Source of the DNA: Rhizophagus irregularis
Lineage: Eukaryota; Glomeromycota; Glomeromycetes; Glomerales; Glomeraceae
DNA length: 64,000 nucleotides
Direction of reading: 5' to 3'
NCBI RefSeq assembly: GCF_026210795.1
Contig: NC_089441.1
Location: 186,001 to 250,000, forward strand
The first letter of the stretch is position 1. The number at the start of each line of letters is the position of its first letter. Of this stretch, positions 2,787 to 31,790 are shown in pieces. The notes beneath the pieces were generated by a model. That model had not been told where the DNA came from, ran no database searches, and saw only the letters and a program-made list of their open reading frames with translations. Both the position numbers and the translations under genes were made by a program.

Positions 2787-3926
2787 TTTTTAGATATGTG
2801 GAAATAGAGGTATCGACCACGAAGGATTTCAAAACGAAAAAATTACTATAGTAATAAAAATAAAATTATAATTCCAAAAAAAAGAAAAAAAAAAGAATGG
2901 GAATATTTGATAAATCAATCTTTGAGGGCTGAAAATAATGTGATTAACTATTGTGATTAAAATCAAAATAAGTTATCTGTTATGACGTTATTTTTCAAAG
3001 ATGTTTCAAATGATTTTTATGTTGTTTGATTTATATTTAATAAAAAATTTTTTTAATAAGAATTCATGTCAAATTATAATTTTAATTAAGTTAATAAATA
3101 TTTCGTTTTAATTTAACGTATTTCTTATAAGTACAAGTTATATAAACAAATTATATAAATATAATGTCAAAATTATATTATAATTTTAAGTTAATAAATA
3201 TCTCGTTTTAATTCAACGTATTTTTATAAGTACAAGTTATATAAACATGTATACAATAAATGATCTGATGAAGAACGATGTTCGACAAATGAATTGAAAC
3301 GAACAAATGAACAAATGACGCCATCAAATGCTGAGTTTGGGATTAATGTTGGTAGCACTATAATTATGGCCTACATTATATTAAATCATGTGATAAACGA
3401 ATAAATTGACAAATGATTATGACTGAAACTCATCCATTTTTTTTTTTTGAAATGAACGTCACTTGTCATTTGTCATTCAAACGCTATTATTAAAAATTCA
3501 TACTGGATGTAAAAAAATCAATGAATGAATAAATTCTTATTAAGCGCTCAAAATTATCATTAATAAAAATAATCTAGTTTAATCCTATTTACCTAGCAAT
3601 TGTTGCTTCAACCTAAAATGTAAATTATTGTATATTATCATCGAGGAATTTTTAGGAAATAAATATCGATAATTATTGATCTGTGGTTAAATGCAGACAA
3701 TTTACTATATTGATAATTATCAATAATAACCTCAAAATTAAATAAGTTAAGTGCAGACAATTTGCAATATTGATAATTATCGTAATTAATTATCATGTTA
3801 ATTAACGATATTGATAATTATCATAATTAATCATCATGAGATAAATTTCGATAAAGGGATAATTATCAATATTCATCCCCTAAAAAAAAAATTTCCCCTC
3901 AAAAAAATTAAAATACGATTGTCAAG
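2787..3926. repeat. intergenic with local duplications
   Basis: No gene is visible. A block of about 60 bp at 3087-3147 recurs as 3188-3246 (both contain GTTAATAAAT, CGTTTTAATT and TACAAGTTATATAAAC), a tandem duplication of about 100 bp. Near 3670-3830 a TGATAATTAT motif and a GTGCAGACAATTT motif recur two or more times, with partial inverted pairing. Confidence 0.5.
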
Positions 3927-4885: not shown

Positions 4886-6686
4886 TCCAAAATGTGGTTT
4901 ATTTATAGAAAAAAAATAATCAGTGGGTATACACAAAATTACGTAACTATTACAAAAAGTTATTCAAAATATAAGTAACTCATTGATCTAGACCTAGCAC
5001 TTTTAAACGGAGATGTCTCAATAAATAATTATAGGAGTAAAATCAGTACAGTCTAACCTCATATTCTTAAAAACTTGATATACCGATAAAATTTTATTTT
5101 CAATATCGGTATAACTTTGATATAACGATGTTTCCTAAATATTTCATACATGTTTGACTGTAAAACTTTATTCCAACCAATAATCGAAGATTTGTAAGTT
5201 ATTAACAAAATAATGTCTGAAAGTTAGATTTATGATTATTTATCTCTAGAAACCGCTTCTATCTTTTTTTTTGTACTTCGTATAATTCTTTAAGTAAAAA
5301 TTAATGAACTCCAGCTACAATAACTTTTCGAACAGGAGAAATTCTCCTAGTCTATGGCCTACCATTCTAAAATATCGTACGAATTACTGTACGTTTCTTA
5401 TCTCTTTTTGTAAGAAAGGGATACGTGTACGTTGAAACGGTAAATTTCGAACGGTTAGTTTCGCGTTGCAAAACTTTGAATATTTTATTATTTTTTTTAA
5501 GAAACGCATTTAGTTTCGGTAAGTTTCGCAACTATTTAGTTGCGAAACTTTATATTTTGGTTTTTTTATTAATAGAAACGTTTTTAACGTTTCGTTTATT
5601 ATTACCCGTGGCGAATATGATATATATGATATATTCATTCAGCCAATCATTCACCGAGTTGAACGGTTAAAAATTTGAAATACTTATCCGTATTTTGTTT
5701 GATCGGTAATTGAAGTTTGTAATTGTGGTATCAATTAGTAATTTTGTTTCGGGAATTGTTTCAATTGTGAGAGATACTAAAGGTATAAATTTTCTTAAGT
5801 TCGTTTGGTTCAAAAAACTGGTGGTAAACTGAACCGACTGTACTGCGGTTTAAGCCACAGTTTGAACTTTTGGCTTCGAAAAAATTTTTTTAGAAAATTA
5901 TAATATTTACACTGCCATCCGTGAAATAATTAAATTATTGATATTATCTAAATAGATAATTTTTAGCTCATTATTGATCACTTAAGCAATCTCTTTTAAA
6001 TTAATTAACACTTCATATGTTTTTATCGGTCAATATTCCATTTAGGGGCAATTCAACCCAAATTGTACTGTACATATATTAGATAATAAGCAATTAATTT
6101 TATACTCATAAATTTTGAGTTAATCCACCCGTCCTATAAAAAAGAATGCCCAGAAATTGGTCATCGAAAATGTCCGGAAAATTAGTCACTTTCAGGACAC
6201 CAGTCCTAGACATTTTCTGGACATTTTCTGGAAATTCAAAATGTCTCGGCGTCCGGAATATTGCACCAGACATTTTCCGGACACCTGGACACATTTTTAA
6301 TGCCCTATAAAAAAAAGAATGTCCGGAAATTGTCATCGAAAAAACAGCTTTATATGTTTTATGCATGCAAGGATGATGATTTTAATTTTAATAAAACTTC
6401 GTAAAATTTATTTCTTCTATTTTCTTTATTTTCTTATTAATATACTGAATGTCCGTCTCATAAATTTCTATAGTGAATCAAAAAATTTAAATATGATATC
6501 CTTGATGTTTCAAAGTTAGATAAATGAATACTTTTTTATATTTTTAATATTTTAATAAATTCCAGGGTTCGGCCAAAAATTGTTTTCTGAGATTTTATTA
6601 CACGCTAATCTATCTAACCTTTTAAAAAAGATAAAAAATATAATTTTTAAGAATTTGTAATTTTTGTACTTTCTTTTATTATATTG
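4886..6686. other. intergenic; GTCCGGAAA-rich palindromic patch
   Basis: No gene found. Between about 6118 and 6350, CCTATAAAAAAGAATG followed by an MCCSGAAATTG-type motif occurs twice in the same orientation (6132 and 6302). Between them lie several direct and inverted copies of GACATTTTCYGGAC. This resembles a degenerate member of the CCCTRTAAAAA miniature elements found elsewhere in the window. Confidence 0.4.
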
Positions 6687-20401: not shown

Positions 20402-23400
20402 ATGGCTAATAGTAACGACGAAGGTAAAAGCATATAGAATTAACGTAGATATTAAATACAAAATTGGAATTCTAAATTTTTTTTATAACAAATTTGCAAT
20501 ATAATAAAACTAGTTTCAATAATTGAAGAAAATAAAGGTAGGCAAAAATACAATGATAATATTACAGCCTGTAAATTATAAATATATAATTTTAAAATTT
20601 TAAACTGCGTTTTAACTATTTTAGCTCGTAAGTTATAGTTTGAATAATAGTTGAATTACTTACTCCTATTATATTTTAAATAACCAAATAATTTATTCTA
20701 TTATTAATGTTATTATAGTTGGTAAGTTAATAGCCATATATTTTTTATTGTATTCTAAATAATATTTCAATTAACTAAATTCTTCACTAAACTAATTGTT
20801 TAATAATTAATGATGTTATAGAAAGTAAGTATTTAATTTTTTATATTAATTTAAAAATATTTACATATAATTCAAACTAATAATATTATTATTTAAATAA
20901 TTAGATTGTAAGTCACTGTATATATTCAATTTTTATATAAGATTATAATATTTTATTAATTGATTATAATTATATTACTTTAAAACTATTATTAATTAAT
21001 AATACTACAGGGTGTAAGTTACTTATTATTTATGTTTCTGTGACTTTTATATGCAAACTTAACTAAACCCTTTATTTAAAAATTTTAGTTGGTAAGTTAT
21101 AAATTATTTATTTTTAATTGAAAATTTCTAAATATACACGGGCATTTCAAGCACGGAACACGTGACCATATAACGAAAAAATAATGCGAAAAAAATTGAT
21201 AAATATACCTTAAAAAAATGTACAGTAAGTGTAGTTTACTTGAAGTGTCAAAGATGATTTTGAATGTTATTTTTGACTTAACTTAATTAACAGTTCTTTT
21301 TTCTTCGTTAAATTTAATAGTTACCTTTTGAGCCCCCCGTGTACAAATAGAAATATTGATTTTATTATTATATTCGTATAATATTTACTTATAATTTAAA
21401 CTAACTAAATTCAAAATATTTTAGATGGTAAGTTACAAGTTATTTATTTAATTCTATAAAATATTAAAATATGATTTAAACTAACTAAATTCTTTATTTA
21501 TTTAATAATATAGAACGTAAGATATTATTTATTCTATTATACTGTATTTATATAATTTTTGCAAGTAATTTAAACTAACTAAAATCTTTATTTTTAGTTG
21601 GCAAGTTATAATTTATTTATTTATATTTGTATAATATTTACATATTAACTAAATTCTTTATTTAAAATATGATTTATTTAATAATATAGAACGTAAGATA
21701 TTGTTTAATTTTATTACGTTTATGTTATATTTACAAACTAACTAAATTCTTTATTTATTATAGAATGTAAGATATTATTAAATTCTATTATGCTTATATA
21801 ATATATGCAGATAATTTAAAAACTAACTTTTTATTCAAATTATTTATTTAATTAATAATAGTGTGTAAGTTATTTGTTTAAATTTATATAAGGTTATATA
21901 TAAATTATACCAACTAAATTTTATATTTTATTTAATACTATAGGGAGTAAGTTATTTATATAATTCTATTATATATTTTTATATAATATTTGCATATGAT
22001 TAAACTAATTAAATTCTTTATTTGAAAATTATTCAAATCTTTTAGTCGGTAAGTTACAGTCATTTAACTAATTCTATTATATTTATATAATATTCACATA
22101 TAATTTAAACTAACTAATTTCTTTATTTAAATATTATTCAAATCTTTTAGCTGGTGTGTTAGAGCTAATTATTTCATTCTATTTATCATATTTATATAAT
22201 TTAAACTAACTAAATTCTTCAATTATTTAGATAGTAAGTTACAAGTACTATATTTATATAATATTTGTATATAATTTAAACTAACTAAATTTTTTATTAA
22301 AAAAATTATTCAATATTTCAGTTAGTAAGTCATAAGTTATTTGCTTAATTTCTATTGTATTATATAATATTTACATATAATTTAAAATAACTAAATTCTT
22401 TGTTTAAAAAATCATTTATTTAATAATATAGGAAGTAAGTTATTTATTTAATCCTATTATATTTGTATTATATTTGTATATAATTTAAACTAACTAACTG
22501 TGAAATTTTTTATTTAAAAAATTATTCAAATATTTTAGTTGGTAAGTTATAGTTTTTTATTTATTATATTTACATATAATTTAAATTAACTAAATGCTTA
22601 TTTTAAACCATTCAAATATTTTAGCTGGTAAGTTATAGTTATCTATCTGTTATATTTATATAATTTAAACTAACTAAATTTTTATTTTAAAAATCATTAA
22701 ATATTTTAGACGGTAAGTTATCTATTATATTTATATAATATTTACCTATAATTTATTCTAACTAAATTCTTTATTTTAAAAATTATTCAAATATTTTAGA
22801 TGGTAAGTCTATTATATATTTTTGTTTATACAATATTTACATATAATTTATACTAAATTCTTTACTTAAAACAATTATTCAAATATTTTAGATGGTAAAT
22901 TATTTAATTAATTTTATTTATGTTTATTCAATGATATTTACATATAATTTAACCTAAATTCTTTATCTAAAAAATTATTTGAATGTTTTAGTTGGTAAGT
23001 TATAACTATTATATTATATAAACATTTCCATATAATTTAAATTAACTAAATTCTTTATTTAAAAATTTATTTAAATATTTTATTAGTTTGTAAGTATAGT
23101 ACATTACATCATCCAATTATAAAAATCCTGAATTTAATTTATTATATATACTAATCTTTTTAAAAATTTTTGGTAATTTATTTTAGTTGGTAAGTTATAA
23201 GTTATTATATATTATTTGTATAAAAATTAATTAATTATTTATTGTATTAAACTTCTAAAAATTTATTTAGAGTAAGTATAATTAACATTATTTAATATTT
23301 AAATTTTCGCTTTTATGTTTTATTTTAAATTTTTAACTTATATAATTTTATTTTTTATATTTAAAGATCTGGTACTAGTGGAAGTGAAATTATGGATCAA

Positions 23401-25871
23401 TTTATTTCCGAAAATAAATTAAAATGGATTCCTTATAATAAATTTGAAAATATTAAATATCTTAATAAAGGTGGATTTGGTATTATTTATGAAGCTACAT
23501 ATAATAATTATAAAGTAATTCTTAAATCTCTTAATTATCTTAATAATTCATATGAAAGTTTAAATGAATTTTTAAATAAGGTATGATTAAATATTTTAAT
23601 TTTAATTACAATTTATTTATGCTAATATATATTCTAATATTATGTTTTTTATAGTGGAAAATTATTGATTCAAATAAAATTATTAAAATATATGGATTTA
23701 CAAAAGATCCAGATACTTTGAATTATATGTTAGCAATGGAATATGCAAATAAAGGTAATCTAAGAGGATGCTTAACAGAAATAACAAAAAATTGGGGACA
23801 GAAATTATATATGTTGTATAAAATTATTATTGGTCTTAAGGATATTCATGAAAAAGGTCTTATTCATTATAACTTTCATGATGGTAATATTTTATGTAAC
23901 AAATATTCAGAAAATGTATATGAAATTTATATTAGTGATTATTTAAGATCATATCAACTTGCAAAACCTTTCTCAAAAGAAAATAGTATTTATGGCATTA
24001 TACCATTTATGGCACCTGAAATTTTAAGAGGCAAACCTTATACTCAAGCTAGTGATATTTATAGTTTTTCTATGATTATGTGGGAATTTACATCTGGTAT
24101 TCCACCATTTAATGATAAGGCACATGATCTTCAACTTGCTTTAAGTATTTGTAAAGGTGAACGTCCTGAAGTCATTGAAAATACTCCACAATGTTTTATA
24201 GATTTGATGAAAAAATGTTGGGATGAAGATTCATTAAAAAGGCCATCTGCATCAGAAATTTTAGATACTATTGAAAAATGGATTTTCCTTTCTTCTAATA
24301 TAGAAAATAATAAAGTATTAAAAAGCAATATTATGGAATTTATAAATGCGCCAATTGGATACAATAACCTTATTGTAGAATCTCATTTACAAGCATATTA
24401 TACAAGTAAATTACTTGATTTTACTAGTAAAGAATTAAATAAAATTCTAAAAGAATCTCAAGGGTTAAAAGATGATGATGATATTGAGCAGGAACTACTC
24501 AAATTAGGAATGATTGCTGAAACCAGTTCTCAAAATGAGCTAAAAGAGGTATATCAAAATATTCAAATAAAATTAGTTGATTTACAACAAAAGAATTTTC
24601 AATTTGAGCAAGATAATCAAATTTTAAGGCTTAACTTAGCTGTACAAATTAAAGAATTTGCAGAAAAAGAAAATACTTTACAAACACAAATTACTCTCCT
24701 GCAAAAGCAAGCCTTACTAGCCAGTGATTTAACTGAAAATTTGGAACAAAATAAACTGATTAACCAGCAAATTCAAATTCAAATTGACCATTTAGAGCAA
24801 GAAAAAATTGGTTTGCAAGAAAAAATAATTCAAACAGAAGCTAATAATCAAGAATTAAAATTTCAGCAAGAAAGTCTAATTGAACAAAAAGAGCAATTAG
24901 AAAATAAAATAAGTCAACCTCAAGATAATTATAAGGCAATAGAACAAGGAAAAATCAAGTTGCACAATATGGGAAGAGGCCTCTCACAAGATCATAAATT
25001 GAAAGCCAAATTGGAAAAGGAAATTGCTCAATTGGAACAAAAATTGATTATTGAAGATCAAATCAAAATGCAATTAACTCAAGTTTTACAAATCAAAGAA
25101 GATAAAGTAAATGAACTAGAACAAAGATTAGTTGTCCTTGATTATGAACGCATTGAAAGGCTAAAAGACAAAGAAAAAGAATTGAGTAAAGTCATAGAGG
25201 AATTAGTAAACAAATTAACTAGTGGAGAAAATACTAAGGAAATTCATAAAGAAAAAGAATCTAAACAAAGGGAAATGGTTGAACTCCAACAAGAATTATC
25301 AAAAACTTCAGCTTTTTATTATTCCAATAAAAAGAAACAAGTTCTTAATCAAGCAAATAATTTTCTAAAAGCCAAGGATAATTTTTTAGCTTCACGAGAA
25401 GAAGCTATTAAAAAACTGCAAAATTGTTGCAATAATCTGGAAAGGTTTACTAATAAAGAGAGAAATACTATTGGTTCTATCAGTGATATGAAAATCTTCA
25501 AATTGGCTGATAAATATACTAAAGAGTTTCAAAATACTCTTGTAAAATATAGTGATGGATTACTACAGTTGAATAAAGTTTATGACTCTTTAGTGGATAT
25601 TGTTCAAAAAAATAAAGAGTTGGAAGTTAGTCTTGTTGTTGAAAATATGCTTAAGTTGAATTCTTTTAATCTTGACAAATACAATATTTTTAAATTTGTT
25701 ACTAATTCTCAGGAAGGAGCTAGAACTCAATTAAATTCTAACATGATGATGGAAGATATAGATTCATTAAGAAAGAATTTGAATGAATTGAAATCAGAAT
25801 TAAAACAAGAAAAAAAGGAATTGAAAAATTTAGCGGAGATTAGAATTAACTATATTGATGGAAGTTTATGA
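20402..25871 (+). CDS. pseudokinase-coiled-coil protein with a 26-fold single-codon exon array
   Basis: Exon 1 20402-20423 (MANSNDE), exon 2 20514-20570, then 26 exons of exactly 3 nt (first 20625, last 23187), a predicted 1-nt exon (A at 23271), 23367-23580 and 23655-25871; about 862 residues. All array introns are phase 1. The joined codons are stop-free (SLENWFDELEQLWIADIRIA, then DDDVVFE) and run in frame into SGTSGSEIMDQFI, the family motif before the kinase domain. Kinase marks: LNKGGFGIIYEA (about residue 86), VILK Lys (about 106), HYNFHDGN (about 195) where HRD has become HYN, SDYL in place of DFG, and FMAPEIL. The catalytic Asp is therefore Asn and a pseudokinase is predicted. Residues ~405-860 are a long Gln/Lys/Glu-rich coiled coil, so a scaffold role is likely. 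If the array is not spliced as read, the kinase part would have to start at the ATG at 23392. Confidence 0.75.
20571..23366 (+). other. micro-exon / intron array
   Basis: About 28 tandem intron units of mostly 70-110 bp. Each has a GTAAGTTA-like donor, a CTAACTAAA branch-point-like motif 30-45 bp before the acceptor, and TTTTAG or AATATAG. Between acceptor and donor there are always 3 nt: 20625, 20719, 20822, 20905, 21011, 21089, 21425, 21514, 21598, 21690, 21764, 21862, 21944, 22046, 22151, 22231, 22322, 22432, 22539, 22625, 22710, 22800, 22892, 22992, 23087, 23187. The triplets vary (TTG, AAC, GGA, TCG, ACG and others) while the splice signals are kept. Donors at 21601 (GCAAGT) and 22154 (GTGTGT) are non-standard. 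Confidence 0.75.
21117..21352. mobile_element. MITE, TACACGGGG family, copy 1 (inside an array intron)
   Basis: Left AAAATTTCTAAATATACACGGG and right CCCCCCGTGTACAAATAGAAAT are imperfect inverted repeats. The same ends bound 36214-36470. It accounts for the one over-long (333-bp) intron in the micro-exon array. No coding capacity. Confidence 0.55.
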
Positions 25872-30963: not shown

Positions 30964-31790
30964 AGAAAGGCATCATAAAAAGCCTTTATCAGAAAAAGGC
31001 GACATAAAAACCTTTATCAGAAAAAGGCGACATAAAAACCTTTATCAGAAAAAGGCGACATAAAAAACCTTTATCAAAAAAGGTGGCATAAAAAACCTTT
31101 ATCAAAAAAGGCAACATAAAAAACCTTTATCAAAAAAGGTGGCATAAAAAACCTTTATCAAAAAAGGCAACATAAAAAACCTTTATCAAAAAAGGTGGCA
31201 TAAAAAACCTTTATCAAAAAAAGGCAACATAAAAAGAAAACGCGACATAAAAACCTTTATCAGAAAAAGGCGACATAAAAAACCTTTATCAAAAAAGGCG
31301 ACATCAAAAACCTTTATCAAAAAAGGCGACATAAAAAACCTTTATCAGAAAAAGGCGACATAAAAAACCTTTATCAAAAAAGGTGGCATAAAAAACCTTT
31401 ATCAAAAAAGGCAACATAAAAAACCTTTATCAAAAAAGGTGGCATAAAAAACCTTTATCAAAAAAAGGCAACATAAAAAGAAAACGCGACATAAAAACCT
31501 TTATCAAAAAAGGCGGCATAAAAAACCTTTATCAAAAAAGGCAACATAAAAAACCTTTATCAAAAAAGGTGGCATAAAAAACCTTTATCAAAAAAAGGCA
31601 ACATAAAAAGAAAACGCGACATAAAAACCTTTATCAAAAAAGGCGGCATAAAAAACCTTTATCAAAAAAGGCAACATAAAAAACCTTATCAACGAAGGTT
31701 AAAAACCTTTATTAAAAAGGCAACAGCGACATAAATGAAAAAGAGCAATATAAAAAACCTTATCAAAGAAGGTTAAAACCCTTTATACAA
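30964..31790. repeat. minisatellite, ~28-bp unit
   Basis: About 28 tandem copies of a unit like GGCGACATAAAAACCTTTATC plus an A-run. Variants GGTGGCAT, GGCAACAT and GGCGACAT alternate. A higher-order block ending in AAAACGCGACAT occurs about three times, so the array expanded in multi-unit steps. It lies upstream of the heat-shock gene. The last copies near 31690-31780 are degenerate. Confidence 0.85.

Follow-up and report, generated by a model that had tools for sequence, protein, structure and literature searches.

The DNA analysed here is a stretch of 64,000 nucleotides (nt) from the genome of Rhizophagus irregularis, an arbuscular mycorrhizal fungus (contig NC_089441.1, positions 186,001 to 250,000), hereafter the window, in whose numbering coordinates are given. 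On its + strand lies a gene whose product has a protein kinase domain (PF07714, 4.4e-33; PF00069, 2e-30) and whose N-terminal region is predicted to be encoded by an array of 26 consecutive exons of 3 nt, each separated from the next by a short intron, followed by one exon of 1 nt. The gene models are predictions from genomic sequence on one genome assembly, and the model for this gene, drawn from sequence only, has 31 exons (2 + 26 + 1 + 2).

Anatomy of the array

Exon 1 (20402..20423, + strand, as are all exons of the gene) encodes MANSNDE and the first nt of a V codon, and a similar exon 1 is present in the sister loci described below. Its start resembles the N-termini MAQSNDKVS (P0110), MAHSNNKVS (P0108) and MALNNDKVS (P0049) in the family set P0001 to P0120, the best 120 of the 980 matches, to Rhizophagus proteins and with a best identity of 76%, that the kinase exons have in the databases. 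The local-alignment score of the exon 1 and 2 peptide against the family is not significant, being equalled by 28 of 60 shuffles. Exon 2 (20514..20537) encodes VSIIEENK and leaves one nt over (phase 1); its end is inferred from the sister loci L051 and L058, and an alternative end at 20570 is in frame in the window. Beyond the first array intron (20538..20624, 87 nt) the 26 single-codon exons extend over 20625..23189, all introns being in phase 1. The first seven start with CTC at 20625, TTG at 20719, AAA at 20822, ATT at 20905, GGT at 21011, TTG at 21089 and ATG at 21425, and the next seven with AAC at 21514, TTG at 21598, AAC at 21690, AAT at 21764, TGT at 21862, GGA at 21944 and TCG at 22046. 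These are followed by CTG at 22151, ATA at 22231, TTA at 22322, GAA at 22432, TTG at 22539 and CTG at 22625 (exons 15 to 20) and by ACG at 22710, ATG at 22800, ATG at 22892, TTG at 22992, TTT at 23087 and TTG at 23187 (exons 21 to 26). The 1-nt exon, an A (23271..23271), restores the frame, G|A|A encoding Glu, and precedes the first kinase exon (23367..23580; SGTSGSEIMDQF...) and a second that continues through the C-terminal region to the stop (23655..25871). A reading made earlier from the letters of the window (the sequence-only reading) had placed the array next to a family motif ahead of the kinase domain. The kinase exon has an FGKSGN-like start with a split codon before it (ESGTSGSEIMDQF).

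A mechanical scan for cassettes of the form [CT]AG, k nt and a donor (GTAAG[TAC], GTAAAT, GCAAGT or GTGTGT), with a donor list picked after the sequence had been read, gave, on the + strand between 20500 and 23400, k = 3 for 27 cassettes and k = 1 for a single one, with no match at any other k from 0 to 12. Recursive splice sites, zero-length exons with AG directly before GT, are thereby absent from the array (k = 0). The remainder of the window has three k = 3 matches on the + strand and five on the - strand, within the range of other k, and no chain of three or more equal-sized cassettes is present there on either strand, the one other chain having sizes of 16, 16 and 10. A stricter two-cassette pattern has five matches in the window, whereas 100 shuffles gave none. 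The roughly 26 consecutive 3-nt exons of the sequence-only reading are confirmed, as 26 AG|NNN|GT cassettes from 20625 to 23189.

The remaining k = 3 cassette, CCT at 20568-20570, lies within the first array intron. Were it a 27th exon, the 'intron' ahead of it would be 30 nt long and have no branch-site match, and in L051 and L058 the same stretch, if read through, meets a TAA (judged by eye), so that exon 2 should end before it; the cassette is probably a decoy rather than an exon. With CCT set aside, exactly 26 3-nt exons are left and the resulting intron, at 87 nt, is close to the median of the inter-cassette introns (54-107 nt, median 89, the value of 54 arising only if CCT is counted). 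The array peptide then begins A-LENWFDELEQL, with G|CT as its first codon, and not S-LENW as had been proposed; its end, DDDVVFE, is as read before, the final E requiring the 1-nt exon. Tryptic peptides predicted from the model are ALENWFDELEQLWIADIR and IADDDVVFESGTSGSEIMDQFISENK. Each of the 28 introns, if retained, introduces an in-frame stop. The kinase exon is in frame when the array supplies 3n+1 nt, as 26 triplets and the 1-nt cassette do, and joining exon 2 directly to the kinase exon, with the whole array skipped, changes the frame. The one exceptional intron, of 333 nt (21092-21424), carries an insert of ~216 nt (21135..21350, ends approximate, no strand assigned) with imperfect terminal inverted repeats (TACACGGG...CCCGTGTA), which has just one 24-nt partial match elsewhere in the window.

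Order of the triplets in the window

The codons evaluated consist of the last nt of one array exon and the first two nt of the next, 71-333 nt apart. Codon frequencies were trained on the window's other open frames (2872 codons, the array gene being left out). On this basis the observed order scores -3.602 per codon, compared with -3.577 (standard deviation 0.146) for 26-codon chunks of the gene's second kinase exon, and this score was reached by 46 of 100,000 shuffles of the triplet order. For the other 11 offsets within +-6 that are testable by shuffling, P is 0.11-0.99, and the observed order ranks first among 30 offsets and 26 rotations. Both halves of the array are individually significant (P of 0.002 and 0.018) and the result holds with training on the non-kinase frames alone. 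Stop-freeness of the peptide was also tried as the sole test and abandoned as weak, shuffles matching it at P 0.25, in favour of the order test. The codons had been described as stop-free in the phase set by exons 1 and 2, which is correct, and theirs is the only pairing of neighbours that gives good codons.

Arrays at other loci

The 146.7-Mb genome assembly was searched with a strict one-unit pattern, which has 14 matches, two of them in the window, and none in a reversed control. All nine 10-kb stretches around the other 12 matches (L051 to L059) carry arrays, and the resulting count of at least ten is a lower bound because it comes from one strict pattern. A chain search at the ten loci, with exon length left free from 1 to 15 nt and splice profiles built from the window's array, returned 396 exons, 373 of them of 3 nt, 8 of 1 nt and 15 of other lengths; in the window 3 nt was chosen for 26/26 exons. 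There are 26 3-nt exons in the window and 56, 64, 41, 30, 34, 25, 36, 51 and 10 in L051 to L059, respectively, although one of the 36 in L057 sits in an insert and is doubtful. Two of the 15 odd-length exons are TGCCG within a small inserted element, 12 are in stretches split by long gaps, and one, in L054, reflects the choice of two AGs, the strict scan giving CTT there. Long inserts split the arrays in L054+L060 (~8.4 kb), L062+L057 (~3.6 kb) and L061+L059 (~4.4 kb). Related small elements with CACCGG-type inverted repeats are present in L058 (~5855-6070) and L052 (reverse strand, ~3070-3309), where they sit in array introns, with the neighbouring 3-nt cassettes intact.

Six loci could be joined whole, with exon lengths other than 1 or 3 omitted (the window, L051, L052, L055, L056 and L058), and in 6/6 the succession of exon 1, exon 2, array, 1-nt A and kinase exon is open, as is L054, joined only up to the array end. 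Exons 1 and 2 leave one nt (mod 3 = 1) in all seven. The 1-nt A and then the kinase exon close 8/10 chains, with the same junction before the FGKSGN-like start; L054 is a ninth locus with these two exons, behind its insert, and L059 was followed less far. The arrays also have a common start, CTC xxx xxx ATT GGT, read as A-L-x-[DN]-W. When eight arrays are aligned on their first GGT unit (the W codon), GGT being identical by construction, the unit before it is ATT in 8/8 and the unit four before it is CTC in all six that have one, and the intron cores beside these conserved units are 67-71% identical, compared with 66% for random inter-locus pairs. Extra stretches add CTC to L057 and the full start CTC TTT ATG ATT GGT to L059.

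Phase of the joined triplets

Pooled over the ten loci, and restricted to 3-nt exons, to stretches of at least four units and to joins over gaps of <=150 nt, 369 exons give 347 codons joined across introns and no stops, with 12-21 stops at the other offsets within +-5. Shuffling within loci (5000 shuffles) gives 16.6 stops on average and a minimum of 6, and none of the shuffles reaches the observed likelihood (z 6.1). The variable part alone (each array from its sixth unit onwards, with L051 cut off before unit 42) has 0/287 stops, compared with a shuffle mean of 14 and minimum of 5. Exons starting with AA, AG or GA occur 0/89 times after an exon ending in T and 66/258 times after other exons (Fisher P 3e-10).

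Alternatively, mRNA could include the triplets but be translated in a different phase, a 5-nt exon, AGTAA, whose donor in the window is GTATAA, then replacing the 1-nt exon, as seems to be the case in several database models. The triplets taken as codons themselves (phase 0) are likewise stop-free (0/369), and stop-freeness alone cannot, therefore, choose the phase; the order test decides, and the order signal exists only for phase 1. The single nt left by exons 1 and 2 in the seven joined loci also fits phase 1 only, and the GTAAGT beside the 1-nt exon is the stronger donor. Additional support for phase 0 comes from the database models. A rough pattern, which misplaced a few models, sorted the best 120 of the 980 matches into 14 that begin right at the FGKSGN-like boundary, 47 in which the boundary is missing and 59 with upstream sequence of varied kind; 'SK' ends 15 of these 59 upstream pieces before the FGKSGN-like start. 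Strings picked by eye from six models (P0024, P0034, P0053, P0104, P0110 and P0010) fit the phase-0 triplet spectrum at +0.27 to +1.51 log2 odds per residue; these are, however, matches of composition, not comparisons with the models' own DNA, and P0012 (-0.26) and six other N-termini (-0.57 to -1.28) misfit. The region of P0024 matches only itself in a protein search. Taken together, translation in another phase is barely credible. We think that a gene finder that disallows 1-nt exons would have joined array triplets in the wrong phase, and the odd L/I/G/M-rich N-termini of the same six models may be such mis-phased strings; a 5-nt pseudo-exon, AGTAA, located at the 1-nt exon, would be the source of the 'SK' in models starting MSKFGKSGN.

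Splice signals and evolution of the units

At the ten loci the donor is GTAAGT in 320/381 cassettes (21/28 in the window) and the acceptor TAG in 359/381, and a branch site (YTAAY or CTGAY within -60..-8) is present in 323/359 array introns. The sequence-only reading's description of tandem units with splice signals holds for the donors and acceptors, but a textbook branch site is not found in every intron. Intron interiors were used to build a tree of the window's 26 units, on which the numbers of changes in the seven splice-signal columns are 0, 0, 0, 1, 1, 1 and 1, a count biased by the cassettes having been found by their splice signals, whereas the interior columns change 6.5 times on average (minimum 1, 80 columns) and the triplet columns 12, 9 and 12 times.

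These data bear on the possibility that the array is a tandem repeat in one long intron or in untranslated sequence, its splice-like signals inherited and its triplets never present in mRNA. The units are tandem copies, so the constant 3-nt spacing could be inherited, and about half of the best 120 of the 980 family models carry nothing upstream of the kinase exon (47 + 14). Inheritance does not account for triplets that pair in order, stop-free and codon-like, only in the frame of the flanking exons, nor for the near-constancy of the splice columns beside a diverging intron interior. Apart from the insert-bearing 333-nt intron, the window has no gap as long as two units, the length that a decayed unit would leave. 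Indels occur at 0.028 per site in related introns, a rate at which ~9 changes that break the frame would be expected among the 3-nt exons of 95 pairs, a prediction for units that were picked for 3-nt exons and for which the observed number was not independently counted. Skipping the entire array would also shift the frame in the window, and neither a long intron nor a transcript starting only near 23392 explains the order of exons 1 and 2, array, 1-nt exon and kinase exon that the paralogs share. On balance a non-coding array is very improbable.

Similarity between units falls with distance along the window array (r = -0.27, P = 0.0004), and in L051 units 28-35 and 42-50 form a near-identical block of about eight units, a recent copy. 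Insertion of introns into a pre-existing exon was considered as the main history and set aside because similarity decays with distance and units are copied in blocks. Growth by duplication of an intron plus one codon, as first suggested, is supported by the similarity of neighbours, the block copy in L051 and the nine additional loci.

The triplets have diverged faster than the DNA around them. Over 54 non-overlapping nearest pairs of units the flanks differ at 169/3780 sites (4.5%) and the triplets at 67/162 (41%), while random flanking 3-mers from the same pairs give 7.5 differences on average and never >18 in 2000 draws; the nine-fold factor is an upper estimate, since pairs were picked for <=6 differences per 70 flanking sites. 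Free of this selection, L051 has introns that are 100% identical and border changed triplets, for example ATA and AAC. Changes between the closest pairs fall mainly at triplet positions 2 and 3 and hardly at position 1. After the first five units the GC content of the triplets is 33, 34 and 54% by position, compared with 12% in the introns, and the last exon base, where G is usual just before a donor, is even across the four letters.

We infer that selection, rather than a mutational process, drives this turnover. Fast divergence could also arise, with the exons real, if homogenisation by gene conversion or intron copying were limited to the introns, an explanation that competes with this one inferred step and not with the exons themselves. 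Consistent with it, intron ends in nearest pairs are ~95% identical and triplet identity climbs slowly with intron identity, to 0.58 (5' side) and 0.67 (3' side) at >=97%, in pairs that are non-independent and mostly from L051. A conversion tract would, however, have no reason to end precisely at an exon of 3 nt if there were no selection against changed codons, so that selection on the triplets is still implied; moreover, the L051 units were copied in blocks, mostly together with their triplets. Homogenisation is a serious candidate, though one that we consider more probably wrong than right.

Several results weigh against an array of coding exons. No similarity between the array peptide and the 120 family proteins is detectable, since 53 of 60 shuffles score equally well, and a search with residues 1-58 (the peptide including the CCT residue) gave no protein at E <= 10. 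Weak donors (GCAAGT, GTGTGT) accompany two of the window's 26 exons. The order test for the window weakens to P 0.005 when each distinct codon is counted once, and taken alone it is not significant at 0.05 for L052 (0.12), L054 (0.24), L056 (0.065) and L059 (0.29, with 9 codons). A test of the peptide for an amphipathic helix is not significant (P 0.16), the triplets are stop-free in phase 0 as well (above), and the common start is imperfect, L051 having CTC without the conserved W and L053 ATT GGT without CTC. The anatomy of the array, its recurrence, the in-frame order, the near-invariant splice signals and the fast turnover of the triplets, established by computation, are nevertheless best explained by 26 genuine single-codon exons and one 1-nt exon that encode the N-terminal part of a kinase-family protein, in a genome with at least ten arrays of this kind, and we regard this explanation as very probably correct. 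The exons would then be spliced in as modelled, presumably in the order considered below.

Kinase domain and other features

Between 23655 and 24120 the motif corresponding to HRD reads HYN (LIHYNFHDGNIL) and that corresponding to DFG reads SDYL, and HYN recurs in P0001-P0003, P0009, P0010 and P0012; we take the kinase, with these motifs, to look like a pseudokinase. No relatives of P0001 were found in the viral_contigs and genome_contigs collections. The two-cassette pattern matches 4 stretches in viral_contigs and 27 in genome_contigs, which was taken as chance level, a control with a 4-nt exon having 11 matches in viral_contigs. The window also has a long tandem array with a 28-nt unit (AAAGGCGACATAAAAAACCTTTATCAAA) at 30966-31772.

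Proposed mechanism and significance

The repeat unit would be one short AT-rich intron (median 89 nt in the window) plus one codon, multiplied by tandem duplication, and each unit would therefore add one residue, with the frame unchanged because all introns are in phase 1 and all array exons are 3 nt long. Removal of the introns is probably by ordinary spliceosomal splicing under intron definition, given short introns, near-perfect donors and TAG acceptors, with each removal adding one codon to a growing exon. Across a 3-nt exon, factors bound on the two sides should be mutually exclusive, in which case the introns must be removed in sequence. With 3-nt exons and phase-1 introns, any subset of the array exons could be skipped without a frame shift. 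The resulting peptide would begin with a mostly conserved A-L-x-[DN]-W, continue with a fast-changing aromatic and charged part (W, Y, F, R and D are abundant in the array peptides) and end, usually, with F and E before the kinase exon.

The array peptide may well be a recognition or regulatory segment. We propose tentatively, with somewhat less than even confidence, that the arrays constitute an intron-made peptide-diversifying system, operating by duplication, loss and shuffling of units and perhaps by variable exon inclusion, and with a role in recognition. Each tandem unit would be a conserved intron with one codon free to vary, so that a peptide of ~25-64 residues, placed ahead of the kinase domain in a multigene family, would be rewritten residue by residue. 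The A-L-x-[DN]-W start would serve as its anchor, and what the multinucleate fungus recognises might be, for instance, self versus non-self or a partner.

Exons of this size have almost no space for exon-bound splicing factors, and with dozens in a row apparently needed, 26 here and up to 64 in a sister locus, the arrays would be a severe natural test of splice-site pairing where exon definition is impossible. They also offer a concrete route by which a protein gains one residue per duplication without risk to the frame, and suggest that in a fungus living in symbiosis with plants entire protein segments are missed, or put in the wrong phase, by standard annotation. In close pairs of units the triplets diverge several times faster than the introns, which inverts the usual exon/intron rule and invites a test for diversifying selection.

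Comparison with known systems

The array is real as sequence, larger than first claimed and, as far as the literature search reaches, undescribed: no array of single-codon exons, as the sequence-only reading had anticipated, and no micro-exons in Rhizophagus were found in the openly licensed papers searched, which include one on Rhizophagus effectors (PMC11333574). The Rhizophagus FGKSGN-type family (P0001-P0120) shares with the window gene the kinase domain, the FGKSGN-like motif and, in some models, the MA.SNDKVS-like start, but no database protein with the array peptide was found (E <= 10). A comparable pattern of change is known from fungal recognition repeats such as the WD40 repeats of Podospora het-d and het-e, whose tandem units stay alike apart from a few fast-varying codons in each. 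Those repeats are coding, whereas here the repeat would be almost wholly intron, with one codon per unit.

Accurately spliced exons of 3 nt or 1 nt have been reported in Drosophila homothorax, Arabidopsis APC11 and Fusarium CYP621A (PMC12940212, PMC4674806, PMC7392893), including single 1-nt exons in Arabidopsis (PMC4674806) and in CYP621A, where the exon is required for the frame (PMC12940212). Those tiny exons are isolated, whereas here they form arrays. The bicycle genes of aphids, putative effectors, have ~17 exons on average and many small internal exons, almost all of which start from codon position 2 (PMC9168663). The array exons likewise start at codon position 2 but differ from those described for bicycle genes in being exactly 3 nt long, in numbering 25 to 64 where followed to the kinase exon, and in belonging to a kinase family.

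Micro-exon genes (MEGs) of flatworms, documented in schistosomes and tapeworms, contain very short exons in succession, each a multiple of three in length (PMC7653826, PMC10399815), from 3 to 36 bp and making up to 75% of the gene, with alternative splicing (PMC10399815); skipping can alter the protein by single residues without a frame shift (PMC7653826). The schistosome MEG proteins described are small (7 to 20 kDa) and among the secreted molecules, and their micro-exon sizes vary. No homology to the schistosome MEG families was found in the search with residues 1-58 (E <= 10), which has limited sensitivity. In architecture the array is likewise a run of very short, frame-neutral exons, all 26 consecutive 3-nt exons predicted from the sequence being frame-neutral, and the predicted 31-exon model exceeds the minimum of seven exons in the operational definition of a micro-exon gene quoted in PMC7653826. 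The array differs from MEGs as there described in that its exons are all one codon, its introns are tandem copies and it stands ahead of a kinase domain. The flatworm micro-exon genes would thus be the nearest known kind, with the R. irregularis array an apparent extreme variant of their architecture.

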